The notes under the pieces are model-generated. The model saw only the letters and a list, made by a program, of their open reading frames with translations. It searched no databases and was not told the DNA's origin. Source: a virus. From it: a stretch of DNA of 43,676 nt. Positions 8,144 through 25,780 of this stretch are shown here, piece by piece. The stretch lies in IMG/VR virus record IMGVR_UViG_3300009093_000072, positions 1 to 43,676 of that record. One strand, given 5' to 3'. The position numbers were made by a program, and so were the translations under genes. Each line of letters starts with the position of its first letter. Position 1 is the first letter of the stretch.

Positions 8144-8153
8144 ATTACGGCTG
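8144..8153 (-). promoter_or_regulatory. late-operon intergenic motif, copy 1
   Basis: ATTACGGCTG on the plus strand (CAGCCGTAAT in the message), 8 bases beyond the stop of the tail tip gene and 50 bases before the tail fibre start. It is flanked by GATC on both sides. Same orientation as the other copies in late-operon gaps. Confidence 0.45.
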
Positions 8154-8160
8154 ATCAGGC

Positions 8161-11100
8161 TCACTCAAGCTTGAGATTATGACTGATCACGCCGCCGCTC
8201 ACATAGGTGTGCGCGGTGTCGACGGTGATCTTGGCCACCATAGCCATGCCCGCAGGCGATCCCAACGCATCCATCCGCACCCAGCCGCCGCCGATCCACA
8301 TCCGGTGCGCGGCAGTCGTCCGCAGCCTCCCGGTGCCGATATCGAGCTCGTAGACATCATCCTCGACAAACGAGATCGCCGACACGGCATAGTCGCCCCA
8401 ATCGCCGAGCGTACCGTCGTCCAACTCAGGCTGGGTGTGCAGCATGTCGCCGACGACTAGAAGTTCTGCGCGCTTTTCGGTGCCGTCCGCCATAAGGATG
8501 CCGGTATCGACGGTGACGCAGTAACCGCCGCCACCGCCGCCACCACCACCACCGACGCCACCGCCGCCGGTCGATATCGTGAAGCTGTCCTCGGTCGTGA
8601 AGTTGAGCAGGTCCGGGCGATCGGTCCAGGCGTCATAGGCGCCCATCTTGGCATAGAACGACCCGGCCGCGAGGTTCTGCAGGAAGGCCGGCGAACCAAG
8701 GAAGTGGAACAGCGTGCCCTGCGTGAGGGGATCGAACCCCGATACCGTCGAGATCGCGACCATATAGCCAGCAACCCCCGCGTCGGTGGATAGGTCGAAG
8801 TCGACCTCGGACTCGCTCGCTCCATCCGCAGCCGAAAACCCCGTGACGGTCGACGGTGCGGCCAATGTCAGGGTCGAGGTCGTCGCCTGCGTCCCCGCAC
8901 CGGCGGAATTCACGCCCGCCACCGTCGCGACGTAATCCCTGCGCGCGCCATCGGTCTTTGCCTGGGCAGCGGTATAGGCAACGGCTGGCGTGCTGGTGAC
9001 GATGGTGCGGATGGGTGTAGACAGGTCAGCGGGATCGAAGAACCGCCAGCGGTAGGACGTTGCTCGAGCTATACGGGCCGTCGACAGGCTGAGCGTGTCA
9101 GCCCAACTGACGAGGGTGATTGCGGCGGCTGCATCGGGTGGCGTCGTGTCGGTCGCTGTCCCGACCTCTGTTGCCGGCGACGAGAACGGCGATACCCGGC
9201 CATCACCGACCTGATAAGCGACCTCGACCTCGACCGTCTCGGACGCGGGCACGAAGCTGGTCTGCAGAGTGACTGCGGATCCCGGATCGGTGTCGGAATA
9301 TTGTTGCTCGTTCCAGCTTGCGCCGCCGACGACACGCCAGCGGGCATACCAGGTCAGGTCGTCGCGGTCGGGGCCGGTCGCCTCGATCGTGACACGCACG
9401 CCTGTCCCATCATCCGATACGGTCGAGAAATCGGCCGCAGCGCTGGTGATCTCCGGCGGGTCGAGCGGGGAAGGGGCCAGCCTGTTACCGACCGGCGCCG
9501 GGTCGCCCTCCTCGGTCGCGGGGTTCCATGCGTACATGTTCGGGTCCGCCAGCACCCAATTGAAGGTGATTCCGCCGGTGATCGGATTCCGCTTCACCGG
9601 GGCAACGATCTCGACGGCGGCGTCGAGGAATATCGTGCCGGCCTCCTCGATCGTCAGATGGATGTAGCGTTGGCCTAGGACGATCTTGCCGGCGGAGGTG
9701 GTCGTGATCGTTCCGCGCTGGGCGGCATTGGTGCGCGCGACAGCCGCTTTTGCTAGGCGGCGAGCCTGGGCATGCGTTGGAACCTGATTGGCAAGTTGCG
9801 TTGCCAGCACCTTGCCTCGCTCGGTGATGTCATCCTCATCCGTCCAAGGATCGGTATCGACGACGTTAAAATCGTGGTTCGCTGAGACATAGGTGACAGA
9901 AACCGAGTTGATGGCGTTCTCTTCGTCAACGCCGTCTTGCAGCGAGTAGCTGACGATGAGATCGGGGTCGACCGTGACAGTCGGCTCGTAATAATGCCCG
10001 GCATAAACGACCAATGCGCCATCCGATCGCGACGATAGCCAGCCGTCGCAGCATGCCAGCAAGGCGGCGACGACGGACTTGTGCTCGTCGGTGTGTTGAT
10101 GGGCGAGGCAACTGCGATAGCGCGGCTCTGTTGCTGGCGATCCTTCGGACGATGACCAGACGACTTGCGAGCCGACAGGGTGGTCATTGTCGAGCGGGCT
10201 GGAGAGGCCGAGCACCATGCCAGAAATGTCGGTTACTGTGCGTGTCTCGGTGAGCGATGTATCGCCGGTCGACGAGATCACGATCGTCATGCCGACCGCG
10301 AGCCCATTAATCGATGTGACTGTAATGTGCCCACTGCCTGCGTCTGCCTTCTCGGTCATGACGGTCTGTACGCCCTTCAGCGGCACAGCCTCATCGCAGA
10401 CATTTGCGGCAGCGGTCCAATAGGCCAGCGTCGGCACGAAATGCGTGTCCCAATCCTTGTTGTCGCGGACCAACTCATAGTGCGCGAGATGCAGGATCGC
10501 GTTCTCGCTGTATTTCCAGGTCGAGCGATCGGTGGCGCTCTGGCTGGGGTCGCGCCAATCGAACACTAGCTGACGCTCCATGACTAGCGACAGCGGCATG
10601 TTGTTCGGGCCGCCGGTCGGGAATATCATCTGGAAATTCTTGGCCTTGGTCGGCTTGGTGATGACGCAGCCAGTGCAGACGCCATCGCCGCGGTGTTCCG
10701 ACGTCCATTGATCGGGCACGAGCGAGATGACTTCGCTGAATGCCGCCTCCGTGTCCTCGCCCAGCCGCGTGAATACCGTCACGATATCGCTCAGCTCGCC
10801 GAACTGTCCCGCTTCACCGGCCTGCACGCGCCCGCCGCTCAACAGCGTGATCTTGGTGTCTGCAAGATAGTGGCCGACGATCGCGTTGACCTTGCCGTCG
10901 TGAAATGCGCCGACGTCGATCGCGATGCCGTCCTTGTTGGTCACATAGAGCGCGAACGCCATATAGTGGCGGCCAAGACCGTAGCCCGATACCCGAGCGG
11001 GGGCCGGATGCTTCAAGCTGGTCTCGGTTAGGGATGGCTTGGGCGCCTTGGGGGCAAGGAGCGCGTTCAGCCCGGCCTCGGCGAGACTGAGGGCGGCGGT

Positions 11101-11241
11101 AGCAATGAGCAGACCTTGCGATGCCGTCACACCGATACCGATGCTGCCGAGAAGTCCGGATACCGCTTGGCCAACGCCGGGGATAAACTGCAGACCTATA
11201 AGGGCCCCGATCTCAAGTATGGAGATGATCGTCTTGCTCAT
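8161..11241 (-). CDS. tail tip/host specificity protein (J- or gp15-like) ending in a Hint domain
   Basis: 1026 residues. N-terminus holds hydrophobic segments (about 4-63); the middle (about 90-560) is the tail-hub type region of J-like proteins; about 570-880 reads as fibronectin-III-like repeats (DDLTWYARWRVVGGASW). A Gly-rich linker then leads to a Hint (hedgehog/intein) domain from Cys908 (CVTVDTGILMADG), with block B TTAAH (His979) and C-terminal VISHN (His1021, Asn1022) followed by only LKLE. The ATG at 11241 forms ATGA with the upstream gene; the longer frame from 11430 is rejected. It should form the tail tip that contacts the host. Confidence 0.8.
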   Translation of the reverse strand: MSKTIISILEIGALIGLQFIPGVGQAVSGLLGSIGIGVTASQGLLIATAALSLAEAGLNALLAPKAPKPSLTETSLKHPAPARVSGYGLGRHYMAFALYVTNKDGIAIDVGAFHDGKVNAIVGHYLADTKITLLSGGRVQAGEAGQFGELSDIVTVFTRLGEDTEAAFSEVISLVPDQWTSEHRGDGVCTGCVITKPTKAKNFQMIFPTGGPNNMPLSLVMERQLVFDWRDPSQSATDRSTWKYSENAILHLAHYELVRDNKDWDTHFVPTLAYWTAAANVCDEAVPLKGVQTVMTEKADAGSGHITVTSINGLAVGMTIVISSTGDTSLTETRTVTDISGMVLGLSSPLDNDHPVGSQVVWSSSEGSPATEPRYRSCLAHQHTDEHKSVVAALLACCDGWLSSRSDGALVVYAGHYYEPTVTVDPDLIVSYSLQDGVDEENAINSVSVTYVSANHDFNVVDTDPWTDEDDITERGKVLATQLANQVPTHAQARRLAKAAVARTNAAQRGTITTTSAGKIVLGQRYIHLTIEEAGTIFLDAAVEIVAPVKRNPITGGITFNWVLADPNMYAWNPATEEGDPAPVGNRLAPSPLDPPEITSAAADFSTVSDDGTGVRVTIEATGPDRDDLTWYARWRVVGGASWNEQQYSDTDPGSAVTLQTSFVPASETVEVEVAYQVGDGRVSPFSSPATEVGTATDTTPPDAAAAITLVSWADTLSLSTARIARATSYRWRFFDPADLSTPIRTIVTSTPAVAYTAAQAKTDGARRDYVATVAGVNSAGAGTQATTSTLTLAAPSTVTGFSAADGASESEVDFDLSTDAGVAGYMVAISTVSGFDPLTQGTLFHFLGSPAFLQNLAAGSFYAKMGAYDAWTDRPDLLNFTTEDSFTISTGGGGVGGGGGGGGGGYCVTVDTGILMADGTEKRAELLVVGDMLHTQPELDDGTLGDWGDYAVSAISFVEDDVYELDIGTGRLRTTAAHRMWIGGGWVRMDALGSPAGMAMVAKITVDTAHTYVSGGVISHNLKLE

Positions 11242-11615
11242 GGCCGCCATGCCCGGATGCAAGCCAGGGCGTCCATCGGCAGGAAATGAACGGTACGCTG
11301 CCCCCGGATCGCCCATCGCTCGCCGGTGAAGATCGCGCCGGCCTGTTCGTCGTCCAGCGCGACCACAGCGATATCGCCAGCCCGCAATTCCTCGACTTCC
11401 GGGATGCTGCTGCCGATTCCGGCGATCCACAGCGCCTCAAGGCCGCCGTCACCCTGTTGCGCTGCCGAGCAGGCGGTCGGCTCAATCGTATCGCGCCATT
11501 TCGCCGCAAAGTCAGGATGGCCGAGCGCGATGCACCAATCCGCCGGCATGGTGCTGCAATTCCATGGGTTGGGATTGGCGCATTGCGCGCGAAGGAAGTC
11601 GCCAAGCTGGGTCAT
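11238..11615 (-). CDS. DUF6950/NlpC-P60-like tail protein
   Basis: 125 residues. PWNCSTMPADWCIALGHPD (about 17-35) matches the start of DUF6950 proteins, related to NlpC/P60-type tail peptidases, with Cys20 as the putative nucleophile and WC after it; RAGDIAVVALDD lies in the later strand region. The usual Asp before the Cys is Asn here. Its place directly before the J-like tail tip gene parallels lambda K or GTA gp14. Likely a tail-tip cell-wall peptidase or a structural derivative. The ATG at 11615 forms ATGA with the upstream gene. Confidence 0.65.
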   Translation of the reverse strand: MTQLGDFLRAQCANPNPWNCSTMPADWCIALGHPDFAAKWRDTIEPTACSAAQQGDGGLEALWIAGIGSSIPEVEELRAGDIAVVALDDEQAGAIFTGERWAIRGQRTVHFLPMDALACIRAWRP

Positions 11616-12154
11616 TTGCTGTCGCTCGGCCCGAAGCGGCGCGACGTGCCGGACGAAATCCCCGCGATGTGATCGAAGAACCGATCGGTCGGCGACCGCC
11701 TGCGTTGGTCGGCATCCGTCCAGAACGCCACCGGCGCCCTTGAACGATCGGTGAAATCCGTCCCGATCGACAGCGTGATCGAGCGCGTCGATCCCTGTCG
11801 CGCCGTCGTCAGCGTGTCGGCACGCAGGACCGCGATCCATTCGACGTCGGTGATTTGCCAGTCGTCGTCGAAATAGACGTTGCCGATATGGACTTTCGCG
11901 CCCTTGACTGACGCCGATTCTTCGATCGCGAGCGCGAGTGTGGCTGTGCTCACACCAGAAACTGTGATGTCGATCCGGCTCGCGGTGCCGTTTATGACCT
12001 GATCCAGTTCCGGGATATTCACCAGGGGGCCGCCGCCGAGATAGGTCGCGGGAGAGGGTTCTACGATGTCGGCGGGGATGTCGAGATCGCCGACGCCGGA
12101 CCAAAGCCGCGCGACTGGATCGGCAGCGATGCGGAATAGCACAGACTGCCTCAT
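11612..12154 (-). CDS. tail tip assembly protein
   Basis: 180 residues, beta-rich (RIDITVSGVSTATLALAIEE, HIGNVYFDDDWQITDVEW, RSITLSIGTDFTDRSRA). It starts at the ATG 12154, overlapping the previous stop (ATGA), and overlaps the peptidase-like gene likewise. Order M/L-like, peptidase, J-like matches siphovirus tail tips, so a role as a minor tail protein joining tube end and tip is likely by context. No specific Pfam family is claimed. Confidence 0.6.
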   Translation of the reverse strand: MRQSVLFRIAADPVARLWSGVGDLDIPADIVEPSPATYLGGGPLVNIPELDQVINGTASRIDITVSGVSTATLALAIEESASVKGAKVHIGNVYFDDDWQITDVEWIAVLRADTLTTARQGSTRSITLSIGTDFTDRSRAPVAFWTDADQRRRSPTDRFFDHIAGISSGTSRRFGPSDSK

Positions 12155-12837
12155 GGCGCCGGTGGCCGCATATCCTCGATGAAGCTGGCGGCGCACGACG
12201 TAAATCGGCCGGAATCGGTCGTGTTATCGGTCGAGCCGGTCAGGATCATCTGGCAGCGTGGGGTATCGAACTCCAGCACGGTCCCGGATGCGACTGCTTC
12301 GCGCAGTGGCGGACGAAAGGTAATCGCGTCGCCATCGATCGACCGGACGCGATAAGCGCGCCACCCCCAGTTCTCATGCTGGATCGAAAACAATTCGCCG
12401 CCGATCAGCGGCTTTTCCGATGTTCCCGCGATCGAGAGCGAGGTCGCGCGCAATGCGGCGCCAGCGGTAGTTGCATAATCGGCGCCGCCGCTTTCGTATG
12501 GCGCGTCGTCGTCGAACGGCGTGTCGTCGCTGTGCGCGACGGTTGCGACGGCGCCTACCGGCTGAAACCGCCGCTCAGCACATAACAGGACGATGAATGC
12601 CTCGCCCGCATCAGCATCGCTGACCACCCGCCATGCATTTCCCGCGGTCTTCGTGCGCGCGATGCCATTGCTGAAATCGGCTTGCAGGTAGCCACCACCA
12701 TCGGGCTCGATTTGGTCAGTGATGCCAGAAAGCGCCGTCCCGCCGTCGAGCACATGGCCAACCCGGCGGATGTTCGTCGTGCGGAAGCCGAACTGGCAAA
12801 GATGGAGAGTGCGCACCGGTGACCGATACGCCGTCAA
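12151..12837 (-). CDS. minor tail protein (tail tip, M-like position)
   Basis: 228 residues if translation begins at the TTG 12837; a GTG at 12816 is an alternative, and neither has a good Shine-Dalgarno. Beta-rich sequence with DADAGEAFIVLLCAERRFQP and HENWGWRAYRVRSIDGD. It comes directly after the tape-end genes and before the other tail tip genes, so it is probably a distal tail or tip component. The upstream gap holds a copy of the intergenic motif. Confidence 0.6.
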   Translation of the reverse strand: MTAYRSPVRTLHLCQFGFRTTNIRRVGHVLDGGTALSGITDQIEPDGGGYLQADFSNGIARTKTAGNAWRVVSDADAGEAFIVLLCAERRFQPVGAVATVAHSDDTPFDDDAPYESGGADYATTAGAALRATSLSIAGTSEKPLIGGELFSIQHENWGWRAYRVRSIDGDAITFRPPLREAVASGTVLEFDTPRCQMILTGSTDNTTDSGRFTSCAASFIEDMRPPAP

Positions 12838-12848
12838 CTGGATCGATT

Positions 12849-12862
12849 ATTACGGCTGGTCA
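12849..12862 (-). promoter_or_regulatory. late-operon intergenic motif, copy 2
   Basis: ATTACGGCTGGTCA on the plus strand, overlapping the stop codon of the tail terminator gene (12860-12862) and lying about 12 bases before the start of the next gene. Same orientation as other copies. Confidence 0.45.
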
Positions 12863-14829: not shown

Positions 14830-14838
14830 CGATATCCC

Positions 14839-15342
14839 CTATCGTGGCGCGAATTCGCCGAAGTGCTTTCGCTCTCCAGCTATCCTCGCCGAGACCGCCT
14901 GGTCGAAGTCACGAAACTGCCCGAGGTAGATTTTCCGGCCGTTTTTGTGCACGGCTACCCGCCACGCCTGGCGCTCGACGTGCCATGAAACCCCGCGAAA
15001 TGGGGCTGCATTTGAGCCGCGGCTGACCTGGTTCATTTTGTTCTGCGATCGCGTGGCCAAACGGAGATTTGCCCACCGATTATCGCCCTTGTCTCGATTG
15101 ATGTGGTCGACATCAAAGCCGGCCGGCGGGAATTCACCAGTCATCAGCAGCCAAGCCGCGTGATGCGCTCGGACGAACGCTCCGGCGAGCCCGATTTGAA
15201 TATAGCCGCGATGGAGGCAGCCGGCCGCCTCGCCGGCTTTTTTGCCATCCTTCCAACTGACAACGCCGGAGACAGGATCATACGATAGACGCTCCAGGAT
15301 ATCGTGGCCGACAGTCCGAGTTTTTGGCAATTCACTGGTCAT
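14839..15342 (-). CDS. HNH homing endonuclease with AP2 DNA-binding domain
   Basis: 167 residues. RAHHAAWLLMTGEFP and FDVDHINRDKGDNRWANLRLAT (about 56-98) form an HNH-3 nuclease core; FRGVSWHVERQAWRV and NGRKIYLGQFRDFDQAVSAR (about 114-155) form an AP2 domain. This pair is common in phage homing endonucleases that spread between related phages. It stands alone in the capsid region, just downstream of a hairpin and an intergenic motif copy, and is not overlapped by its neighbours, consistent with a late insertion. Confidence 0.85.
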   Translation of the reverse strand: MTSELPKTRTVGHDILERLSYDPVSGVVSWKDGKKAGEAAGCLHRGYIQIGLAGAFVRAHHAAWLLMTGEFPPAGFDVDHINRDKGDNRWANLRLATRSQNKMNQVSRGSNAAPFRGVSWHVERQAWRVAVHKNGRKIYLGQFRDFDQAVSARIAGERKHFGEFAPR

Positions 15343-15371
15343 CGCCGAACCATGTCAATTGCGGAACCATC

Positions 15372-15384
15372 GATTACGGCGGGT
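15372..15384 (-). promoter_or_regulatory. late-operon intergenic motif, copy 3
   Basis: GATTACGGCGGGT on the plus strand, between the capsid-side hairpin and the HNH gene, 30 bases before its start. It differs from the main form (TGGT) by one base after the core. Confidence 0.4.
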
Positions 15385-15388
15385 ACGC

Positions 15389-15423
15389 AAAGGGCCGCCC
15401 CACGCGAGCGGAGCGGCCCCTTT
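15389..15423. terminator. strong hairpin after the capsid genes
   Basis: AAAGGGCCGCCCC and GGAGCGGCCCCTTT pair to form a long GC-rich stem with one or two bulges and a 6-8 base loop. It lies 18 bases past the stop of the small gene after the major capsid gene, where phages often place a terminator that lowers downstream expression. The A/T pairs at the stem base make it symmetrical and possibly bidirectional. No long T run follows on the minus strand. Confidence 0.55.
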
Positions 15424-15441
15424 CCCCGCGACGAAATTGGT

Positions 15442-15639: not shown

Positions 15640-15642
15640 GGC

Positions 15643-16653
15643 TCAGACTCCGTCCGTGAAGGTGATCGCTTTCGGGATGCGGTTCTCGTAGCCGCCGATG
15701 GCCATCAGGCCCGGCACCTCCCACGAGAACGGCCCCTTCTGGTAGGGCTGGGTATTGAAGAGCTGATGACCGCCGCCCGGAAGGTGGAAGCGGTGAACGT
15801 CGCGGCTGTTCGCGTAGACGATCATGCGCTTGGTGGATCCGGCGCCGGCGGTTTCGAGACGGAAGGTCCGCTTGATCGTCGCCGGACCGATGACCGAGTT
15901 CGCCTGCAGATAGGCGAGCACGGACATGCCGGTGTTCGTCATCGGCTTCGATGCCAGGATATTGTACGTGCTGGTCGGCAGCGCGATCGTATCGGCGCGA
16001 TAGGTTTCGTTCGTGTTGGTCTCGACCGACGACAGGGCGGTGTTGATCACGGCCACGTCCGAGGTCGCGGTCGAGGCGGCGGTGATGGCAGCCGCCGCGG
16101 TAACGGTGGTGGCAAGCGGATTGTTGAGGAAACCGGTCGCGAACTTCAGCCCGTCGCCGAGCATCGCCGTCTTGTGGATGAAACGCTCGGCCGATGTCGT
16201 GGCCGCGTTCGCCTTGTCCGCGATGACATTGACGCCAAGCTGCTGTCCGCGCTCCAGGTCCATGCGGTTCCACTTGTAGCCGATCGCGGCCATCCAGTTT
16301 TCCTGGAGGAACTGCGTACGGCTCGAGTCGGCATAGGGCATGTCGTCGGCCGCCACGTCGAACCATTCCGGCTTGCCGGCGATGTCGCCCGAATAATAGA
16401 TCGAGCCCGCCGACCAGATTGTGCCCTGCGTATCGACCGGCATGTACTCGGCGTAATCCGCAAGCGGATACTTGATCATGTATACGCCCTGCTCGACCGT
16501 GAGCAGCTGCGGCGTCAGGAAGGCGTTGACCTGCTGTGCGTCGTTGAGGTCGACGCCCTTGATGGCGTCGGCGAATGCAAGGCACCCGCCGCCCTGAGCG
16601 ACGATCGAGGCAACTGCCGCCTGTACGGAGTCGAAGAAAATCGGCTTGGTCAT
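15643..16653 (-). CDS. major capsid protein, DUF2184 family
   Basis: 336 residues. Long N-terminal part with DDMPYADSSRTQFLQENWMAA and a middle VEQGVYMIKYPLADYAEYMP, a Thr/Ala-rich domain (about 165-205), then RMIVYANSRDVHRFHLPGG and AIGGYENRIPKAITFTDGV at the end match the DUF2184 capsid family. It should assemble the icosahedral shell (HK97 fold by family). The mRNA has aaggggg just before gccgtaATG. It follows the decoration gene by 10 bases. Confidence 0.8.
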   Translation of the reverse strand: MTKPIFFDSVQAAVASIVAQGGGCLAFADAIKGVDLNDAQQVNAFLTPQLLTVEQGVYMIKYPLADYAEYMPVDTQGTIWSAGSIYYSGDIAGKPEWFDVAADDMPYADSSRTQFLQENWMAAIGYKWNRMDLERGQQLGVNVIADKANAATTSAERFIHKTAMLGDGLKFATGFLNNPLATTVTAAAAITAASTATSDVAVINTALSSVETNTNETYRADTIALPTSTYNILASKPMTNTGMSVLAYLQANSVIGPATIKRTFRLETAGAGSTKRMIVYANSRDVHRFHLPGGGHQLFNTQPYQKGPFSWEVPGLMAIGGYENRIPKAITFTDGV

Positions 16654-16659
16654 TACGGC
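16651..16659 (-). promoter_or_regulatory. possible motif copy at the capsid start codon
   Basis: CATTACGGC on the plus strand (GCCGTAATG in the message), in which the core of the intergenic motif is fused with the capsid ATG. It could be chance, since only the 8-base core is shared. Confidence 0.25.
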
Positions 16660-17125: not shown

Positions 17126-18235
17126 TTAGGCGGCGCGCTGCGAGTGGGCGGTTTCCTTGGCGGCGAGCCATGCGGCGCGGGCGTCGGCGGTTGCCTTGGC
17201 GGAGTCGCCGATCTGGACCGGCGAGCCGATGATCCCCGGCGCCGCATCGGCCACCTTGGCGTCCTTGGTCAGCACCGAGAACGCGGTGGCGTAATCGCCT
17301 TCCGAATAGTTCTTGGCCGCATCGCCCATCGCCTTGTCGACGACGGCCTTCTTGATTGCGGCCTCGTCCATGGCATCGGTGACCGTGATGCCGGCGGCCT
17401 TGCCCTTGGCGACCGTCTCGGCATAGGCCTTGGCGGCGTCGCGCATCTGCTGCGGCGTCACCTTGGCATCCTCGACCTGCTTCTTCAGCGTGACAATCTC
17501 GGCGTCCTTGGCGACGATCGCGGTGTTCGCGGTCGTCAGCGCCGTTTCGGCCGTGGTCGCCGCCGTCTTGGCGTCGGTCACCTGGCCCTGAAGCTTGGTG
17601 ATGGCCACCTCGACGGCGGCGGCATCGGAAAGGTCGACCTGCAGGCCGTCGAGCATGATCTTCTTCACGTCACGTTCTCCGTCATGGATGGGGGTGCGCT
17701 CGTCCACGATGCGCAGGTCCGAACCGCCCCTCGCGCGGGGGACGGCGGCCAAATGGTTGTACCGGATGTTCGACAGCGAGGCGTCGTAGGGCTGTCCGTC
17801 ATGGATGCCCGGCACCATCTTGATCTCGGCGGTGTAGCCTAGGCTGAATTCGTTGTGGTCGGTGCGAACGGCGGTCACGCCGCCGGCATCGGTGACCCGC
17901 AGCGGCACGCGCATGCGATCGCCGTCGCGCATGATCTCTTCGCCGGTCTCGCCCTTCGACAGGTCGCGCCAGTTGGTCGCATCGACCATGCCGGCGGGAT
18001 GCTTGAGCGTGATCGGGAGGCGCGACGCCGTTTGCAGGCTGTCGTGCGCGAACACCTCGGATTCGGGCCGGAACACGCGGACCTGATCGCCCGGCGCGCG
18101 GTCGGTCAGTTCAAGTTCTGCCGCTGTGTAGGTCTGGATATTGTTCGCGCGCGCCACATAGGCGTCGGCCACGAGGTAGCCTTCCGGTGTAATCCGGGCC
18201 TTTCCCTCGATCGTGGCGCGGTCATGGAACAGCAT
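17126..18235 (-). CDS. DUF2213 prohead protease fused to scaffold
   Basis: 369 residues. N-terminal part (about 1-185) carries GYLVADAYVARANNIQTY, PITLKHPAGMVDATNW, EFSLGYTAEI and NHLAAVPRARGGSDLRIVDE, which match DUF2213; His in KHPA and Ser in EFSLGY are the likely catalytic residues as in related serine herpesvirus-type proteases. Residues about 200-300 form an Ala/Lys/Glu/Thr coiled coil typical of scaffolding. The fusion suggests the scaffold cleaves itself and capsid parts during maturation. Confidence 0.8.
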   Translation of the reverse strand: MLFHDRATIEGKARITPEGYLVADAYVARANNIQTYTAAELELTDRAPGDQVRVFRPESEVFAHDSLQTASRLPITLKHPAGMVDATNWRDLSKGETGEEIMRDGDRMRVPLRVTDAGGVTAVRTDHNEFSLGYTAEIKMVPGIHDGQPYDASLSNIRYNHLAAVPRARGGSDLRIVDERTPIHDGERDVKKIMLDGLQVDLSDAAAVEVAITKLQGQVTDAKTAATTAETALTTANTAIVAKDAEIVTLKKQVEDAKVTPQQMRDAAKAYAETVAKGKAAGITVTDAMDEAAIKKAVVDKAMGDAAKNYSEGDYATAFSVLTKDAKVADAAPGIIGSPVQIGDSAKATADARAAWLAAKETAHSQRAA

Positions 18236-18266
18236 GGGACGCGGAATTAAAGTGAGGTGAGGGGGG

Positions 18267-18280
18267 CGATTACGGCTGGT
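18267..18280 (-). promoter_or_regulatory. late-operon intergenic motif, copy 4
   Basis: CGATTACGGCTGGT on the plus strand, in the 56-base gap after the tape measure gene (stop at 18292) and before the protease start at 18235. A partial second copy, CGATTAC, overlaps 18285-18291 immediately upstream. Confidence 0.5.
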
Positions 18281-18291
18281 TTGCCGATTAC

Positions 18292-21200
18292 TCAGCCTTT
18301 GAGCGTCTGGGCCTGTGCGATAACCCCGGGCGCTTGCCCAGCGGCAGTGCTGACAGCCGCCTCATATGCCTGCCGAGACCGCGCATCGGCGTATGCCTGG
18401 AACTGGCGCATGGTCTGTTCGTCGGTACGCGCGCCGGTGAAGTCTGCATGAATCGGCTGAACGACGACGACGCTCGGTGCCGGGCCGGAATTCACGCGCC
18501 CATTCGCAGCCCCAATGTTCGGCCCGATCGCGAACGGCTCTCCGCGGTTGACGCGAGCGAACGGTTGGCCGTTGAGCGAGAGGACGTTTCTGTCGGTGCC
18601 GTAATTGCCGCCGATAATGCCGCTGCCGCCAGTTGCGAAAGCAGGCAGGAAGCTCAACAGGCTTGATGCGGAACTGGGGCTGAACGCACTCCCGGCGGCG
18701 CCCCAATCCGAGCCCAGGTTGCCAGCTATATCGCCTCCGTGGCCGAAGAGGCCACCAAGCGCCGACAGGATGCCACCGAACCCGCCGCCACCGCTGCCAA
18801 GCCCAGCCGACGCACCCTGCTGCGGGAAAAGCATGTTCGCCAGCGGGATCAGCAATTCGCGCTCGATGCCGATCTTGATCAGGTCTTGCAGGAACTCGCC
18901 AGCGATCCCGTGCAAGTGCAGGAACTTCGCGACCGCGCTGGTCAGGCCGTCGTCGAGCTTTTGCAGGCCGGATGCAGCCGCGCGCTCCATTGCCTCGTTG
19001 ACCTGGTCGACGGTGTTTGGGAGTGACGCGAGATAGTCGCCGAGCGGGCCGCGGTTCTGGGCGGCGATCGTTGCTGACCTGTCCGCGAACCGTTTATCCT
19101 GAGTTTTCAGGGTGCGATTGGCGGCATTGAGATCGCTGGTCGAGACAGAGCTATCGTCATTCGCCGCGCGGTCAATCGTGTAGTTGGCGCCGAGCGTTTC
19201 TTTCTGGCGCTCAAGGTCAAGAAGTTGCTTCTCGATCCGCGCGCGCTCGGCCACAGTCTTGGCCAGCGACTCCTGGTCGCGAAGCTCGTCCTCTTTGGCG
19301 TCGATGATCGCCACGGCGGTGTCATAGGTGCGCTTCAACGCCTCCAGGTCATGATCGCGATGGATCACGGACACTTGGGCGGCGTACGTGTCATTTAGAA
19401 GTTGCGCCTTGAGGGCGTCCGCCTGGTCCTTTCTGAGCCGACCATTCTTCACGTCCTGGTCGTAGTCCTTGATCCTCCGGTCTCTATCCGTGTTGAGTTG
19501 CTGTTCCTTGATATCCAAGCGCGCAAGTTCATCCTGCGTCTGCTCGGACTGGGCCTGGAGCTGCTCATCCTGTAGGCGAGCCATCTCGTCTGCAAAGTGC
19601 TTATCTTGCTCCGCAGTCTTGTCCTTGGGTCCCTTCTTGCCAGGACCAGCGAACAACTTGCTGAGGTCGGGACCGCCTCCCACGGGCGCAGTGACATCAG
19701 CGGAATCGGCCGCCTGCGCACCCCGGATATCGCCGAACTGTTTCTGGAGGTTGGTCAGCGCGGCGCGACGGCCCTCTGCCGTATTGTCGACCCAGCCGAC
19801 GCCCTCAACGAAGAACTGACCACCGTCCGTCTTAACATTCCGCGCCGCATTGGCGATCGTTTTAGCGCCCCGCTGGACGATCTGGGAATATGCATTTCGG
19901 CCGCCTGCCGACGAAAGCAACACGCCCCGGTTTGCTTGCCGATCGGACTCGGTGGCCATGAACGATGGATTGCTCATCGCTTGAACTGCAGCCCACTTCT
20001 GAAGCGCCGCGAACGCCGTCAGGATGCCGCTGGCCAAGCGGAAGAAGGTATTGGCCAGCTGGTTGATTGCTTCCGCGTTCTCCGCGACCGTGCTGGACAG
20101 TTTACGCTCCAACTGGTCGCCAAGAAGCCTAAGTTTCTGCGCAGTCTTTGCGGCGTTCTGAATCTCGGTGTTGCTGAGAACGCCGCCCGTTGCCTCGATG
20201 CTTTTCGTTAGTTCATCGAATGAACCCGATCCGTTTTTCAGGATAGGATCAAGCTTCCGCAGCTGCTCACCGCCGAGCGCGGTTTCGAGGGCCATGCGAC
20301 GCGCTTGGTCGGGAATCTTGGCCAGCTTGTCCATGAACGCCGGCAGGATGTCGTTAAGCGACTTATAGCCGTCCTTGGTGTTGCCGAGATCAATGCCCAG
20401 CGCCTTGAATATCTTGGCCTGCTCCTTCGACCCTTCCTGCGCCTTGCCGATGTTGGACGATAGTTGGCCGAACCCCTCGCGCAGCTGCTCACTGGTGACG
20501 CCCGCTTCCGCCGCCGCAATCTCCCAGACTTGCAGTGATTTGGTTGAGACGCCGAGTTGATCACTGACCTGCTTGATCGTTTTGGCGTATTCCAAACCGG
20601 CTTCGGCTGCCTTGGCGACCAATGCGATACCGCCGGCCGTGACGATGCCGGCGATTGCGGCCGCACCGCCGGTGGCAGCGAACGCGCCGGCGCCGCGAGC
20701 GAACTGTTCAGCATTCTTCGCGCCGGCCCTTCTTGATGCCGCCCCTGCGACCGCAGCCCGCTCGATCTCCACCGCCAGCGCGCGCTTTTCCAGCTCGACC
20801 GCGATCTCTGCATCACCGAGCCCAGCGCGCTGAAGCTGGTTGATTAGGCGCAGCTCCGCGAGCTTGTCGCGAATGACCGCAGCGTCTTCCTTGTTCGCGA
20901 AGGTGAGGGCGGCCTGCAGCTTGGCGCGATCGGCCAGCATGTGGTTGATCTCGGCTTCTGCTGCCGTCGCCTCGCTACCGCCGTTGAGCACGGACAGCGG
21001 GATCGCGCCTTGGCCGGTGCGCTCGCCCGGAACCGACGTGCTGGCGATGCGGCCGGACCCGCGCTTGACGCCACCACTGCTAGTCGATTGCGCGACCATG
21101 TTGCGGATACGCCGGACAGTCGCCTCTTCTCGCTGCGCCTCGGCAATCGCGGCGTCGGCCTGCTCCTTGGCGGCTTTCTTCGCTGCCGCCGTCTCGCGGT

Positions 21201-21465
21201 TGGACTGGGCGACGGCGGTATCTGCTCGAGCCTTGCGAGTGCGCGTGACGCGCTGGGTCAGGCCTTCTTCCGCCGCGCCGATTGCGTTAGTGCCCTGCTT
21301 GTACTTCTGTCCCTCTGCGCCAAGGTCGAACGTCTGCGCCTTCAGCTTGTCCGTCGATCGTGCGAACTTGTCATGTACGGCCGTCGCCCGATTGAAATCG
21401 GCCTCGTACTTGTCGAGGTTCCGGACGATCAGGTCCGCGATGATGGCGTCGACAACCTCGGCCAT
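18292..21465 (-). CDS. tail tape measure protein
   Basis: 1057 residues. Long helical charged regions (about 30-250), a hydrophobic stretch about 270-300 (GAAAIAGIVTAGGIALVAKAAEAG), a conserved tape-measure core (KQVSDQLGVSTKSLQVWEIA, about 310-400), further coiled coil (about 610-790), and a Gly-rich C-terminus. Its length sets tail length; by size the tail would be of order 150 nm. The ATG at 21465 overlaps the stop of the frameshifted chaperone T (TGATG), the standard arrangement. Confidence 0.85.
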   Translation of the reverse strand: MAEVVDAIIADLIVRNLDKYEADFNRATAVHDKFARSTDKLKAQTFDLGAEGQKYKQGTNAIGAAEEGLTQRVTRTRKARADTAVAQSNRETAAAKKAAKEQADAAIAEAQREEATVRRIRNMVAQSTSSGGVKRGSGRIASTSVPGERTGQGAIPLSVLNGGSEATAAEAEINHMLADRAKLQAALTFANKEDAAVIRDKLAELRLINQLQRAGLGDAEIAVELEKRALAVEIERAAVAGAASRRAGAKNAEQFARGAGAFAATGGAAAIAGIVTAGGIALVAKAAEAGLEYAKTIKQVSDQLGVSTKSLQVWEIAAAEAGVTSEQLREGFGQLSSNIGKAQEGSKEQAKIFKALGIDLGNTKDGYKSLNDILPAFMDKLAKIPDQARRMALETALGGEQLRKLDPILKNGSGSFDELTKSIEATGGVLSNTEIQNAAKTAQKLRLLGDQLERKLSSTVAENAEAINQLANTFFRLASGILTAFAALQKWAAVQAMSNPSFMATESDRQANRGVLLSSAGGRNAYSQIVQRGAKTIANAARNVKTDGGQFFVEGVGWVDNTAEGRRAALTNLQKQFGDIRGAQAADSADVTAPVGGGPDLSKLFAGPGKKGPKDKTAEQDKHFADEMARLQDEQLQAQSEQTQDELARLDIKEQQLNTDRDRRIKDYDQDVKNGRLRKDQADALKAQLLNDTYAAQVSVIHRDHDLEALKRTYDTAVAIIDAKEDELRDQESLAKTVAERARIEKQLLDLERQKETLGANYTIDRAANDDSSVSTSDLNAANRTLKTQDKRFADRSATIAAQNRGPLGDYLASLPNTVDQVNEAMERAAASGLQKLDDGLTSAVAKFLHLHGIAGEFLQDLIKIGIERELLIPLANMLFPQQGASAGLGSGGGGFGGILSALGGLFGHGGDIAGNLGSDWGAAGSAFSPSSASSLLSFLPAFATGGSGIIGGNYGTDRNVLSLNGQPFARVNRGEPFAIGPNIGAANGRVNSGPAPSVVVVQPIHADFTGARTDEQTMRQFQAYADARSRQAYEAAVSTAAGQAPGVIAQAQTLKG

Positions 21466-21725
21466 CAGTGCAGCGTCTTCGCAATGCCGGCATCGGCCAG
21501 ACGCTGTTGCCGGCGCTCGACGAATGCGGCTTCAGGCGCCTCGACTGGCTCCTGTTCGGTGCTGTGGCGATCGTTCCAGGTCCAGAGCATGCCTTGATAT
21601 TCCCACCATGTCAGCGATCGCGCTTCCGACGGCTGGACACCCATCATTGCGCAGTTGGTTAGGACTCCTGCCCAGTCGATTTTTTCCTGCGGGTTGGCCG
21701 GCTCGGCGCCGGCTCGCCTTTTTTT
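21465..21725 (-). CDS. T-part of tail assembly chaperone, made by -1 frameshift (G-T)
   Basis: The -1 frame from the A run at 21719-21725 is open for 84 codons to the stop at 21465-21467 and reads AEPANPQEKIDWAGVLTNCA, then MMGVQPSEARSLTWWEYQGM, a pattern typical of phage T-like chaperones (DWxxLL...GxxPxEaxxLTpxE). The codons before the ATG at 21647 look like this same protein, so a stand-alone start at 21647 is less likely than a fusion. The predicted G-T product is about 218 residues. In siphoviruses, G and G-T bind tape measure and tube subunits during tail assembly. Confidence 0.75.
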   Translation of the reverse strand, partial: KKRRAGAEPANPQEKIDWAGVLTNCAMMGVQPSEARSLTWWEYQGMLWTWNDRHSTEQEPVEAPEAAFVERRQQRLADAGIAKTLH

Positions 21726-22120
21726 GGCGGGGTGTACCCCTCGATGAGCGCGGCAAGGATCGCGAAGGCAAGGGACCAGACCTGCGTCATGGCCATGCGC
21801 TGGTCGGATGCGGTCAGAACGTACCGCTCGACGAGATCGTTGGCGCGCACCGGCGACACGGTGACGGGTTTGCCGTCGACTTCACCGGAGCCACCGCCGA
21901 TCAGCCCTTGCCGGACGACCTCGACCAATTCGGCGAACTTGTACTCCGCCAGATCGGGGTAGATTTCCCCGTCCTTGTAGCCATACCGCCCCTTGATCGT
22001 CCGCGCATAGATCGCACCGATGCCGGAGCTGCACTTCTGCTCGATCTCCGCGATCTGCCCCATGCCGAGCTTGAATGTGTACTCGCCGTCGGCAAACTTG
22101 AGATCGACCCAGGTCTGCAC
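21659..22120 (-). CDS. tail assembly chaperone G (GTA gp11-like)
   Basis: 153 residues. WVDLKFADGEYTFKLGMGQIAEIEQKC and GAIYARTIKGRYG, then DLAEYKFAELVEVVRQGLIGGG and a C-terminal helix LAFAILAALIEGYTPPKKG are characteristic of GTA TIM-like or gp11 tail chaperones. It starts at GTG 22120, 4 bases after the tail tube stop. Normal reading ends at TAA 21659-21661 with KKSTGQES; a -1 shift at A AAA AAA gives the G-T fusion. Confidence 0.75.
   Translation of the reverse strand: MQTWVDLKFADGEYTFKLGMGQIAEIEQKCSSGIGAIYARTIKGRYGYKDGEIYPDLAEYKFAELVEVVRQGLIGGGSGEVDGKPVTVSPVRANDLVERYVLTASDQRMAMTQVWSLAFAILAALIEGYTPPKKGEPAPSRPTRRKKSTGQES
21719..21725 (-). promoter_or_regulatory. -1 programmed frameshift site A AAA AAA
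   Basis: In the G reading frame the sequence is CCA AAA AAA GGC, a perfect X XXY YYZ heptamer (A AAA AAA), as in known -1 sites. Slippage there enters the -1 frame that runs without stops through the T-like domain. GC-rich sequence follows (gagccggcgccgagccggc), able to form a stem as stimulator (GCCGGC and GCCGGC repeats). Confidence 0.75.
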
Positions 22121-22124
22121 GGCG

Positions 22125-22859
22125 TTACGAGATAACGACGGTGAGCGTCGTCAGCTTCGGCGAGTTGGTGGCTTCGGCGAACGTCTCGGTCACCTTCACC
22201 GACTTGCTGCCCGCGGTCGCCCATGTCGCATGGATCGTGTTGGTCGCGTCGTCGTAACTGACCGCAGTAGCGCCGGTCGCAACGATGCTGATTTCCGAGC
22301 CTGCGTGGCGGCCGGACACCACGCCCGACCACGGCGTTGCAGCGGTTCCGGTCAGCGGGGTTGCGGTCAGCGTCGCCAATGTCGGCGCCGTGGTCGACAC
22401 CCAATCGACGATGCCGTCGCTCTGCCAGGTGAACTGGCTGGTGACGTTCTGCTTGTCGGTCGCGCCTTCCTGCCACTGCTGGAACAGGAACGGTCCCTCC
22501 CAATAGCCCTGGCTGACGAGATCGTTGCCGGGCTCGCCCTCGATGAAGCGATAGGGGAGCGTGCGGCCATACACCGCGCGGATGACATTGGTCTGCGCGC
22601 GGTTATGCAGACCGGTGCCCGACATGTTCTTTTCCTGGCTGTTCGCATTGCGCGACACCCACGGCACTTCCTCGGGATCCTGACAATTCGGGACAGCTTC
22701 GTCGGACGTGTTGATCTGGTGCGTGAGGCTGCGGGTGTTGAGACCGCAAATGATCACATAGCCAGTGATCGGACTGCCGCCACCATCGAGCAGGCCAAGG
22801 GTCGTGACGTCGACCGCCACATCGAAATATCCACCTTTGACAGTGCTCGGAACGGTCAT
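22125..22859 (-). CDS. major tail tube protein with Ig-like C-terminal domain
   Basis: 244 residues. About 1-160: tail-tube type sequence (KGGYFDVAVDVTTLGLLDGG, TGLHNRAQTNVIRAVYGRTL, EGPFLFQQWQEG); about 161-244: Ig/Big-like domain (APTLATLTATPLTGTAATPW, SEISIVATGATAVSYDDATN). Such extra Ig domains decorate tails in many phages. GGAGG lies just upstream of the ATG at 22859. Followed directly by the two chaperone frames and the tape measure gene, the fixed order of siphovirus tails. Confidence 0.75.
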   Translation of the reverse strand: MTVPSTVKGGYFDVAVDVTTLGLLDGGGSPITGYVIICGLNTRSLTHQINTSDEAVPNCQDPEEVPWVSRNANSQEKNMSGTGLHNRAQTNVIRAVYGRTLPYRFIEGEPGNDLVSQGYWEGPFLFQQWQEGATDKQNVTSQFTWQSDGIVDWVSTTAPTLATLTATPLTGTAATPWSGVVSGRHAGSEISIVATGATAVSYDDATNTIHATWATAGSKSVKVTETFAEATNSPKLTTLTVVIS

Positions 22860-22910
22860 GTCTGCATTCCTCCGGGAAACGGGCGGAGGGATACGGCGCG
22901 GGTTGGTTCG

Positions 22911-22924
22911 CGATTACGGCTGGT
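22911..22924 (-). promoter_or_regulatory. late-operon intergenic motif, copy 5
   Basis: CGATTACGGCTGGT on the plus strand, identical to copy 4, abutting the stop of the MuF-like gene (22925-22927) and 51 bases before the tail tube ATG. Confidence 0.5.
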
Positions 22925-23767
22925 CTAGTCGAAGAGGGGCTCTTCCCAGCACTGGCAACCCCAGAGCGTTTGGGCCCGATCGTTAGGAGCGTTGCGCTCG
23001 CTGTAGACGCGATTGTCCCGCGCGACGTGCTCTGGGCGCGGATATCGCAGATGGGGTGTGTGGTGCCATATGAACCGGTCGATGCCAGCCGCCTTCCGCC
23101 GCGACCGTCCCATCGCCGTCACCAGCTTGTCGGTCTGATCGACGCCGATGCCGAGACCGCGGCGCTTGGCTTTGGCCAGAACGTCGGTTGCCGTTGCGCT
23201 GGCGGATGCTGTCGGCTTCCTCGCTGCCAAGTCTCCGAGAAGCCCAGACGTCAGATCATTCTTGACCTTGCGGCTGACGTCATCGGCGAGGCGGCCCATC
23301 CAGGCTACCGCGTCCTCAACATCGTTACGGACCTCGCGCGCGCCAGTGAGGTGGGAGACGTCCAGGCCGGTCGCGGTTCTGATGCGCTGCACCCATTGGC
23401 CACGGTGCCATTGCTCTACGCGGGCAGCGGCATCGGGAAGGCGGGCTTCGGCGGTCCGGACTGCGCCGGCTACCCGATCGCTGGCGGCATCGATCGCGCG
23501 CAGCAACGCGCCGGTATCGCCGGTGACGCGCGCCGAATCATATGCGGCCACGATCGTCGCCCATTCGGCCTGCCATGCTCGCATGATCAGCACGAACGGC
23601 GCTGCCATCGACGACCTCAGGCCCTCCGTCGGCTTGATCTGGCGGAATGGTCGCGGCTTGATTCTCGCGCGCGCGATCATTGCGGGCAGGCTGTAGAGCG
23701 CTCCGGCCAGCAATGCTGCGGCGATTATTGTTTCGGCTGTGTGGTGGTCGTCGGGTTGGGAGGCCAT
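22925..23767 (-). CDS. MuF-like head morphogenesis (minor head) protein
   Basis: 280 residues. Helical N-terminal two-thirds with a hydrophobic N-terminal stretch (TIIAAALLAGALYSLPAMIA), then KAAGIDRFIWHHTPHLRYPR and RDNRVYSERNAPNDRAQTLWGCQCWEEPLF, the typical C-terminal signature of Mu F-like proteins (GCxCxxxP). These interact with the portal and with the capsid interior. It begins in the portal stop (TGATG at 23765-23769). Confidence 0.8.
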   Translation of the reverse strand: MASQPDDHHTAETIIAAALLAGALYSLPAMIARARIKPRPFRQIKPTEGLRSSMAAPFVLIMRAWQAEWATIVAAYDSARVTGDTGALLRAIDAASDRVAGAVRTAEARLPDAAARVEQWHRGQWVQRIRTATGLDVSHLTGAREVRNDVEDAVAWMGRLADDVSRKVKNDLTSGLLGDLAARKPTASASATATDVLAKAKRRGLGIGVDQTDKLVTAMGRSRRKAAGIDRFIWHHTPHLRYPRPEHVARDNRVYSERNAPNDRAQTLWGCQCWEEPLFD

Positions 23768-25737
23768 CAGTCGGCGTCCGGCATACCCATCACATCGCTA
23801 TCGTTATCGACCGGCTCGAATATCTCCGGCCCCAGCACGATCTTGCCGCGGTACGGCTCGACCTTCGACAGATCGACTGGCTGATCGGTCAGCGAGATAT
23901 GCGGCTGATACGACGGCCACTGATCGACAGCCTCGGCTGCGCGCAGGATTTGTTCATGCCGCCACGACAGCGCCGATGACGTGAACAGCAATACCGCCGT
24001 CCGATCGCCAAGCGGCTCGACGATGCGGACGCCGCCGGGCTGGATCGTGATCTCGCCCTTCGCGTCCTGGTTCCATTCGCCGTCGACCTTCATCCAGTCG
24101 AATGCCTGGTCGATATGGACGATGGTGACGTGGAGGCCGGGCTGTAGATCGGGCAAACCCTGCGATTTCGCCCACGCCTTGATGTCGGCGACGTTCACGA
24201 CATCGCGGCGGCCGTACATGGTGCGCGGGGTGGCGTCGGCGAATCGCGCATCATTCGCGGCCATACGCTGCGCCGGCACCTTGCCGCCGGCGGCCTGATC
24301 CCCTCCTCCCGCTTGCAGTGCATTCGGATCGATCGGGTTGCCGTTCGCGTCGACCTCGGGCTCTGCCTCGCTCGGAAACCGTTCGTGCTCGGGAATCTCC
24401 GCCAGCGCATCGCCGAGGCCAGGCAACCAGCTCCGTTCTTCCATCGTGTTCTGCAACGCCTTGTCGAACGCGACGCCGGGAATTGACCCTGTCGCCTGCA
24501 GTTTCTCCACGCCCTGCATGAACGTGAAGAACGTCGTCGCCTCATCCTTCTCTGACTGCGACGACAGAGGCGCCCAATCGTACCAGATGCCGTCATCGAC
24601 CTTGCCAAGCGCCGACGGGATCAGCGCCGCATCGATTTGCGTCATGCACGGCCGCAGATCGAGGTCTTGCCGGCCCTTGATGGTCTTGTGCCAAAGCTGG
24701 ATGTCGGAATCACCGGTCGCGTTCATGCCCTGCGGCGAGATGCCCCACAGCACGGTTGCCGGCATGTCGGCGGCGGCAGCGGCTGCGGTGCGATACGCGG
24801 CCATGATGTCCGGCATGCCGGTCCACGTGACCTGCTTGTCGTCGATCTTCTCTGCGCCAGTGACTCCATCTCCGCCGTCGAGCCACGACACCGAGTTGTT
24901 GCTTTCACCGAGTGCGAAGGCCTGCAGACGCTTGGCAAGATCGGCCTCTCCACCAGGTTTGGTGAATTTGTCGAACAGCTTGGGGATGTAGATGCGCCGC
25001 AACCGCGCCTGGCTGATCAGCGCCGCAAACCCGGTGTCCGCGGTATCGACGTTCTGGATCGCGTCGATGATCGTTTGGACCTTGGCTTGACCCCAGAACG
25101 CGGACTGCCAGTCGACGTCGACGATATCGGCTACGGGTTCGGCTTTGAATGCGACGACGCGGCTGGGGTGGAAGCGGATGGGCTTGCTGGTCGAGGTCCC
25201 TTGCAGCTGGATCTCGTAATAAGACGGATGGCCGAACCATGGATCGGTCCACGTGTCGATCATGGGGCCGAGCGCGAACCGAGACCGATGCCAAACGTGG
25301 ATCGCCTTGAGGTCGCCGGCGTTCAGCTTGGCGGGGTCGATCGGGTTGGCCTGGTCGAGGTCCGACCCAAGGTACAGCACCATGCCAGCCCCACCGAGCC
25401 CACGCAGACACTCGGCACGACGGACCTTGTTGCGCAGGTCCAGCCGCTTTTCCTCGGCCTCGAGCTTTTCGATGTCGGCGCTGTCAGCCTGCCAGTCGCG
25501 CCATTCCCGCACCATCTCGGTCGCGGGCTTGTCGATCGCCTTCCGCATGACCCACGACCCGCGATAGGCCTGGTCTATCTCCTGGTCGGACATGAAGCGC
25601 GCGAAATAGCGGCTGTAGCTGCGCTGGTCGGTGGTGGTGCCCATGCCGGTCAGCATCGAGATGAGCCCGTCGCGGATCGGCACGACGTTGCTCGCATCCT
25701 TCAGGCGAATGCTACCAGGTCGGATGCGGCCGGACAT
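23767..25737 (-). CDS. portal protein (DUF1073 type) fused to a 2H phosphoesterase, Acb1-like
   Basis: 656 residues. About 1-430: DUF1073 portal (ARFMSDQEIDQAYRGSWVMR, GMVLYLGSDLDQANPID, VAFKAEPVADIVDVDWQSAF). About 500-656: a 2H phosphoesterase with two HxT/S motifs, HVTIVH (His536) and PHISLT (His613), in the YQPHISL context seen in this superfamily. Databases link this family to Acb1, the T4 nuclease that degrades CBASS cyclic nucleotides; that activity here is inferred. The portal part forms the DNA entry ring. The gap to TerL holds a motif copy. Confidence 0.75.
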   Translation of the reverse strand: MSGRIRPGSIRLKDASNVVPIRDGLISMLTGMGTTTDQRSYSRYFARFMSDQEIDQAYRGSWVMRKAIDKPATEMVREWRDWQADSADIEKLEAEEKRLDLRNKVRRAECLRGLGGAGMVLYLGSDLDQANPIDPAKLNAGDLKAIHVWHRSRFALGPMIDTWTDPWFGHPSYYEIQLQGTSTSKPIRFHPSRVVAFKAEPVADIVDVDWQSAFWGQAKVQTIIDAIQNVDTADTGFAALISQARLRRIYIPKLFDKFTKPGGEADLAKRLQAFALGESNNSVSWLDGGDGVTGAEKIDDKQVTWTGMPDIMAAYRTAAAAAADMPATVLWGISPQGMNATGDSDIQLWHKTIKGRQDLDLRPCMTQIDAALIPSALGKVDDGIWYDWAPLSSQSEKDEATTFFTFMQGVEKLQATGSIPGVAFDKALQNTMEERSWLPGLGDALAEIPEHERFPSEAEPEVDANGNPIDPNALQAGGGDQAAGGKVPAQRMAANDARFADATPRTMYGRRDVVNVADIKAWAKSQGLPDLQPGLHVTIVHIDQAFDWMKVDGEWNQDAKGEITIQPGGVRIVEPLGDRTAVLLFTSSALSWRHEQILRAAEAVDQWPSYQPHISLTDQPVDLSKVEPYRGKIVLGPEIFEPVDNDSDVMGMPDAD

Positions 25738-25768
25738 GGCGGCGGTTTATGGGTGCGCAGGGGCGCTG

Positions 25769-25780
25769 CGATTACGGCGA
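25769..25780 (-). promoter_or_regulatory. late-operon intergenic motif, copy 6
   Basis: CGATTACGGCGA on the plus strand, 9 bases past the TerL stop (25789) and 32 bases before the portal ATG at 25737. It shares CGATTACGGC with copies 4 and 5 and then differs. Confidence 0.45.

Follow-up and report, generated by a model that had tools for sequence, protein, structure and literature searches.

The analysed window (all 43,676 nucleotides of IMG/VR virus record IMGVR_UViG_3300009093_000072) carries a short asymmetric motif that recurs in gaps of the late region. The most plausible reading makes the motif one of the two parts of a late promoter. It very probably represents the upstream element, spanning about -44 to -33, in a family of phage late promoters that would depend on an activator. 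In the mechanism that we propose, a -10 box of the form TAnCnT, in which T-12, A-11 and usually T-7 are kept, would be recognised by host RNA polymerase carrying the housekeeping sigma factor, and a phage DNA-binding protein would bind the asymmetric element at the position normally taken by a -35 box and stimulate transcription. Each promoter would head a single structural cassette (portal, protease, major tail, distal tail or tip). At most sites transcription would begin on or adjoining the A of the ATG and give a leaderless mRNA; at the remaining sites it would begin about 20 nt upstream and give a leader bearing a Shine-Dalgarno (SD) sequence. The element dialect of each lineage presumably tracks its own activator.

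Judged from sequence, matching promoters probably switch on the structural genes in a large alphaproteobacterial phage group. If so, a large and mostly uncultured group of temperate alphaproteobacterial phages would use a late regulator outside all described families, with leaderless mRNAs as the templates for many of the group's structural proteins. The dialects would then be natural matched pairs of element and regulator in which to follow joint change in a regulator and its scattered sites, and the architecture would give a simple way to predict transcription units and true start codons in members of the group.

Occurrence and orientation of the motif

A preliminary description of the window had reported a recurrent oriented motif in late-region gaps and had named a count against shuffled sequence as its check; both the recurrence and the enrichment were confirmed. 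The core ATTACGGC occurs 8 times in the window on both strands, against 0.74 expected (100 shuffles, maximum 3). Seven cores are on the plus strand (8144, 12849, 15373, 16652, 18269, 22913 and 25771), antisense to the late genes, and the message there reads GCCGTAAT; all seven gap sites (7/7) share one orientation relative to transcription, as stoperators do. The eighth copy (18598) is on the opposite strand, within the tape-measure gene. The long context first given for the core is exact for the 14-mer CGATTACGGCTGGT at 18267 and 22911 alone, and is departed from at 15371 (1 mismatch), 8142 and 12847 (2 mismatches each) and 25769 (3 mismatches). A k-mer search of the 25-62 nt upstream of called starts, run without the motif as input, returned GCCGTAAT as the top k-mer of the window (5 seen against 0.007 expected, P = 1.5e-13); repeated on the opposite-strand genes of the window, it returned nothing.

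The evidence is good for five of the seven sites as predicted promoters of a common set; these are listed here with the two remaining cores.

25744-25783, minus strand: predicted portal promoter; element 25772-25783, -10 box TAAACC at 25744-25749, ATG at 25737; short, putatively leaderless class
22888-22925, minus strand: predicted major tail promoter; element 22914-22925, -10 box TATCCC at 22888-22893, ATG at 22859, leader containing GGAGG; long class
18244-18281, minus strand: predicted head protease promoter; element 18270-18281, -10 box TAATTC at 18244-18249, ATG at 18235; short class
12823-12861, minus strand: predicted distal tail promoter; element 12850-12861, -10 box TATCGG at 12823-12828, start codon GTG at 12816 (assigned via homology to L006); short class
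8119-8156, minus strand: predicted tail tip promoter; element 8145-8156, -10 box TACCCG at 8119-8124, ATG at 8094; long class
15373-15380, minus strand: core 5' of the HNH gene, whose ATG is at 15342; -10-like sequence weak
16652-16659, minus strand: core over the capsid ATG; no -10 box in place

Some of the -10 boxes in the window (TAAACC, TAATTC) are poor matches. The site at 8144 had been placed after the tail tip gene, which is incorrect in the sense of transcription, where it lies between the fibre gene (8161-11430), upstream, and the tip gene (5218-8094), downstream. The site at 12849, described as lying after the tail terminator, precedes the distal tail gene when read in the same sense. 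A single class for all seven sites was dropped. The core at 16652 does overlap the capsid ATG, as had been reported, but it has no -10 box at the proper distance and no counterpart before the capsid gene of the relative G018, and is probably a chance match; membership of the HNH site at 15373 is uncertain.

Two-part architecture and spacing to the start codon

Among 86 gap sites that were picked on the upstream 7-8-mer only, a spacer nearly free of information is followed by T (57/86) and A (74/86) at +20/+21 (P = 1e-21 and 5e-41, respectively, against a 19% background) and then by the C and T of TAnCnT. The element stands about 20 nt upstream of a sigma70-like -10 box. It contains no inverted repeat and is asymmetric in all dialects.

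The start codon lies 32-35 nt from the element at 56 of the 86 sites and 50-54 nt from it at 22. GGAG, GAGG or AGGA precedes the start at 0/56 sites of the 32-35 nt class and an SD does so at 25/28 sites of a 44-60 nt class, against a baseline of 332/721 for all late-strand genes, the start positions being those of a simple gene caller that was built for this analysis and favours SD-preceded starts. In the short class, the -10 box itself partly precludes an SD. At 49 of the 56 short-class sites the start codon comes 12 or 13 nt after the T-A pair of the -10 box, so that these sites combine the two features of a leaderless promoter, a -10 box at this distance and no SD. Because 12-13 nt is the distance from -12 to +1, the short class should give leaderless mRNA; were transcription to begin at its ATG, the element would occupy -44 to -33 and TAnCnT would occupy -12 to -7.

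The preliminary description had likened the motif to the stoperators of mycobacteriophages, which are repressor sites and are likewise short, asymmetric and mostly in one orientation, with genome-specific motifs that vary with the repressor (PMC6550527). Operators of this kind, silencing the late genes in the lysogen, would suit a temperate phage with an integrase and CI/Cro-like helix-turn-helix (HTH) proteins. We nevertheless regard repressor operators as unlikely, since the spacing here is near-invariant, whereas descriptions of stoperators mention no fixed spacing to a -10 box or start codon; the stoperator model fits poorly. A consensus scan of the gaps also found no canonical -35/-10 promoter, so a plain repressor would leave the source of transcription unexplained.

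Conservation and dialects among related phages

Related phages keep the architecture at the same genes, with an element whose sequence differs by lineage: the clade of the window has GCCGTAAT, and the other dialects are ACGGCGGTAA, ACGGAGGTAA, ACGACGGTAA, CCGTCCGTAG and GAGGGGTATAA. Each related genome has several such predicted promoters, at matching genes across relatives (five in the window), and the architecture is the same in genomes with the usual gene order. Equivalents of the portal and major tail sites are present in G003, G018 and G030, and of the tail tip site in G003 and G018. Relatives lacking the motif in similar gaps had been named as an outcome that would refute it; taken literally such relatives exist, but they hold another dialect at the same position.

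The blind k-mer search found a repeated k-mer in 18 of 21 genomes, nearly always an element dialect, and when it was run across genomes on opposite-strand genes nothing fell below 9e-6. Elements differ less within a genome than at the same gene between genomes (Hamming distance 1.69 versus 3.12; permutation p = 0.0002), as would be expected from one trans-acting factor per phage. Three phages that were left out of model building all fit: in the prophage G400, TGACGGCGGTAA occurs at five late-gene sites, with the ATG 32-33 or 52 nt away; in the prophage G350, CCGTCCGTAG precedes the portal, protease, major tail and distal tail genes; and in the cultured phage Ssp-JY40, GCGGCGGGAA precedes the portal and protease genes and one later late gene. 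A megablast search with 12 kb against cultured phages gave no match.

Two boxes at a fixed spacing are what a sigma factor requires, and a host alternative sigma factor might recognise both with no phage factor involved. This is quite unlikely, given that the element varies between related phages yet is uniform inside each phage, and that the composite pattern in about 16 Mb of host genomes is nearly limited to prophages (7 of 8 hits in contigs bearing gene B).

Candidate regulators

Two adjacent window genes were considered as sources of the putative activator.

27886-28086, minus strand: gene B; 66 aa, HTH-like orphan family
28083-28628, minus strand: gene A; 181 aa, model resembling a ParB/Noc DNA-binding domain

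The protein that would bind the element is most likely B, with or without A; B is our lead candidate for the activator and A a candidate partner. B and the promoters occur together in 38 loci, both are absent from 8, and a promoter occurs without B in 1, L073 (Fisher p = 3e-8), a co-occurrence that is phylogenetically confounded because in portal relatedness the loci without either are the farthest removed. L073 was set aside as a case of promoter without B, being a fragment of a decayed prophage in which no phage head genes were recognised upstream, as was L050 as a case of B without promoter, its portal promoter being present just downstream of the stretch first scanned. Dialect distance follows portal relatedness more than B relatedness. 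With portal corrected for (partial Mantel), the correlation of B with dialect is weak (0.046, p = 0.24, 37 genomes; 0.164, p = 0.02, 26 genomes having A), and the data therefore fail to single out B.

Searches of PDB gave nothing significant by fold for B and no match by sequence for A or B. Pfam found no Mor/C family among 32 B proteins; across most window ORFs outside the structural block it gave no match to an RNA polymerase or to the Mor/C or Ogr families, and no sigma factor match that passed the cutoff.

A complete alternative sigma factor encoded by the phage, recognising both boxes, is very unlikely. It could draw on a small HTH gene (34171-34707) with a sub-threshold Sigma70_r4 match (E = 0.0012) and on the resemblance of B to a single HTH domain; however, the Pfam scans of the window gave no sigma region 2 match, B is too small for both domains, and the gene at 34171-34707 has a BLAST match in only 1 of 20 related contigs. 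Returning to an activator acting with the host sigma factor, it is quite possible, though short of probable, that the phages have a new late-gene switch in which B, sometimes with A, recruits the host sigma70 polymerase to an element that is specific to the lineage and replaces the -35 box, and governs a largely leaderless structural-gene regulon whose element and regulator co-evolve.

Module boundaries and RNA-level signals

A protein site, an RNA signal and a module boundary had all been proposed for the motif, and the first, as part of a promoter, fares best. The boundary survives in the weak sense that each predicted promoter opens a cassette and that identical 14-mers (18267, 22911) flank the MTP-TAC-TMP tail cassette, which in the window, G003 and G030 has an unusual place between MuF and protease. 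That the repeats serve mainly as recombination joints for module movement is most improbable, as recombination alone leaves the -10 box, the two start-codon distances and the SD split unexplained, and the architecture is also present where the gene order is the usual one. An RNA-level signal (processing, leader structure or terminator) is barely credible despite the intergenic position and the frequent beginning at the upstream stop codon, as the gaps have no common fold (z -1.84 to 1.19) and no Rfam match, terminator-like sites are at chance level, and the element would lie upstream of the predicted transcription start.

Comparison with known systems

In phage Mu, the late promoters lys, I, P and mom are activated by C and the middle promoter Pm by Mor (PMC4461284, PMC4390567). 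As proposed here, Mu has several phage promoters ahead of late gene groups, with non-consensus -35 and -10 boxes, an activator site at or just upstream of -35, and use of the host sigma70 polymerase (stated for Pm); binding in the window phage is predicted. The site of Mor is a 16-bp element, centred at -43.5, that contains two 5-bp inverted repeats (PMC4461284, PMC4390567), whereas the window element is asymmetric with its centre near -38; Pfam gave no Mor/C protein among the window ORFs scanned, and the predicted leaderless starts and the dialects are added features.

The middle promoters of T4, with a MotA box and sigma appropriation by AsiA (PMC7403470), similarly have a phage element that replaces the -35 box while the host sigma factor is kept, and involve two small phage proteins, as A and B might be. 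They differ in proteins and element, and the present case concerns late genes of a temperate phage. PhoB boxes are activator sites that overlap and replace the -35 box in an alphaproteobacterium, but belong to a host regulon and have another site (PMC3616915). The motif also differs from CtrA sites (TTAA-N7-TTAA), which occur in other alphaproteobacterial phages (PMC9437464).

The start-associated sequences GGGATAGGAGCCC of Cluster K phages, the other likeness drawn in the preliminary description, are also repeated oriented motifs in gaps before genes, but they lie mostly outside the structural module and close to the start codon (PMC12699233). The comparison did not hold, as the window element has a different sequence from the GGGATAGGAGCCC consensus and stands mostly 32-54 nt upstream of the start codon.

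Proposed late promoters in the window

The window carries genes for terminase, portal, MuF, protease, capsid, tail proteins, integrase and CI/Cro-like proteins, and is of the temperate siphophage type. ATTACGGC occurs 8 times against 0.74 expected (both strands), and 7 of the 8 copies lie in late gaps in a single orientation, as the preliminary description had reported; of the longer context given there, the 14-mer is present in the window and is exact at two sites only. With the late genes on the minus strand, the core reads GCCGTAAT in the message, past the stop codon of one gene and ahead of the start of the next. The motif was also said to adjoin a stop codon at most sites. Where another gene lies close upstream (46 cases), the element (the repeated motif, here the upstream half of proposed late promoters) indeed starts at that gene's stop codon in 28; stop codons are seen beside it because the length of the gap is roughly that of one promoter.

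Promoters of the portal, major tail, protease, distal tail and tip genes of the window are well supported, with counterparts at the same genes of G003 and G018 (related phage contigs). At the capsid site (core at 16652) a -10 box was not in place and a counterpart was not found in G018, and the HNH site (core at 15373) is an uncertain member.

Anatomy of the proposed promoters and start classes

We selected 118 gap sites by the 7-8-mer alone, 86 of which had a called start 20-60 nt downstream. Alignment on the element gave TGACGGCGGTAA, a low-information spacer and TAnCnT 20 nt further; this -10 box is independent evidence, since the sites were chosen without it. The element-to-start distance among the 86 sites was 32-35 nt in 56 (short class) and 50-54 nt in 22. 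A Shine-Dalgarno core was present in 0/56 short-class sites, whose start codons were 53 ATG and 3 GTG, and in 25/28 sites of the long class (44-60 nt). In 49/56 short-class sites, 12 or 13 nt separated the T-A pair of the -10 box from the start codon, as between -12 and +1 in a sigma70 promoter. Read plainly, these sequences would have short-class transcripts begin on or beside the A of the ATG, and long-class transcripts about 20 nt ahead of the start codon. We infer transcription from the late promoters, its start points, the sigma factor and an activator from sequence. Translation of leaderless late mRNAs is plausible, given that the alphaproteobacterium S. meliloti has 171 start sites at which leaderless mRNAs begin with a 5' AUG (PMC3616915).

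Relatives and dialects

Searches using the portal and capsid proteins gathered 62 viral loci and 6 bacterial genome loci (Stakelama, Sphingomonas and Bosea among them). The nearest relatives carry GCCGTAAT in the same gaps as the window; more distant ones mostly lack it and have a variant at equal distance before the portal ATG (ACGGCGGTAA, ACAGCGGTAA, ACGACGGTAA, CCGTCCGTAG or GAGGGTTATAA). Genes were called in 20 longer phage contigs by using a simple Markov caller. A blind k-mer search, supplied with no motif and confined to the interval 25-62 nt before each called start, found a recurrent k-mer in 18 of 21 genomes. In nearly all of these it was a dialect of the element (a lineage-specific version; best P 1.9e-19); in the other 3 genomes, no k-mer reached 3 occurrences. 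The identical search on opposite-strand genes gave a best P no lower than 9e-6. Dialects were compared at the portal, protease, major tail, distal tail and tip genes, using sites found with a matrix that excluded the genome's own clade. Sites differed by a mean of 1.69 positions within a genome vs 3.12 for the same gene between genomes (permutation p = 0.0002), as would be expected if every site in a phage were read by one and the same factor.

Candidate regulators

The two candidates are uncharacterised genes directly before terS; listed after them is an HTH protein with a weak sigma-like match:

27886-28086: protein B, 66 aa
28083-28628: protein A, 181 aa
34171-34707: 178-aa HTH protein, sub-threshold sigma70 region 4 match (E = 0.0012)

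B was present in 20/20 portal-bearing contigs examined. B and the promoters occurred together in 38 loci, neither in 8, and a promoter without B in 1 decayed prophage (Fisher p = 3e-8). This p value calls for caution, as the 8 loci with neither are the most distant relatives. B had no convincing match in PHROGs, Pfam or PDB, and its predicted model (helices 11-21, 23-30, 34-44 and 47-61; mean pLDDT 78) had no significant structural match. A, found in 15/20 contigs, was unmatched in sequence searches; its model (pLDDT 85) aligned to the Noc DNA-binding domain (probability 1.00, target TM 0.74, rmsd 3.0), although with an E-value of 0.52. A is not always needed, because promoters persist in genomes without it, and distance tests do not single out A or B. 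The HTH protein had a BLAST match in one related contig only. Among the window ORFs that the Pfam scans covered, there was no RNA polymerase, Mor/C protein or sigma factor above cutoff.

Comparison with known systems

Closest in function are the Mu C/Mor and T4 MotA/AsiA promoters, at which a phage protein site lies at or replaces the -35 box (PMC4461284, PMC4390567, PMC7403470); on the tests made, the proposed system does not belong to the Mor/C family. The likeness to stoperators raised in the preliminary description extends to asymmetry, one-way orientation and genome-specific motifs (PMC6550527), but stoperators lack the fixed promoter geometry seen here. No earlier description of this proposed promoter system was found in the open-access library searched.

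Sequences outside model building, and related phages and elements

Searching for protein A in 401 genomes from a single family yielded two new prophages: G400, in which TGACGGCGGTAA precedes late genes at five sites with the ATG 32-33 or 52 nt away, and G350, with CCGTCCGTAG ahead of the portal, protease, major tail and distal tail genes. The cultured phage Ssp-JY40 (L130) has GCGGCGGGAA ahead of the portal, the protease and a later late gene. The composite pattern matched 8 times in ~16 Mb of four host genomes, with 7/8 matches on B-bearing contigs. A second B-bearing element (G031:C92, L141) in the genome that holds locus L069 has promoter-like sites of its own.

Ssp-JY40 and Yong-M3-232 (L131), for both of which the records name Synechococcus as host, have protein A and a portal belonging to this alphaproteobacterial group; Ssp-JY40 has 63% GC and protein B as well. 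The host named in these records may be worth revisiting.

Gene order and other features

The MTP-TAC-tape measure cassette (18292-22859) is placed between MuF and the head protease, an order common to the window, G003 and G030 (a further related contig), and is flanked on both sides by identical 14-mers; in relatives such as G018, the major tail gene follows the capsid gene. Other features of the window were:

4878-5072: small ORF, a putative gene, encoding a run of Pro-Thr repeats, towards the left end of the late genes
14839-15342: HNH endonuclease gene inside the head-tail connector region
39981-40535: HNH endonuclease gene with NUMOD4, early region
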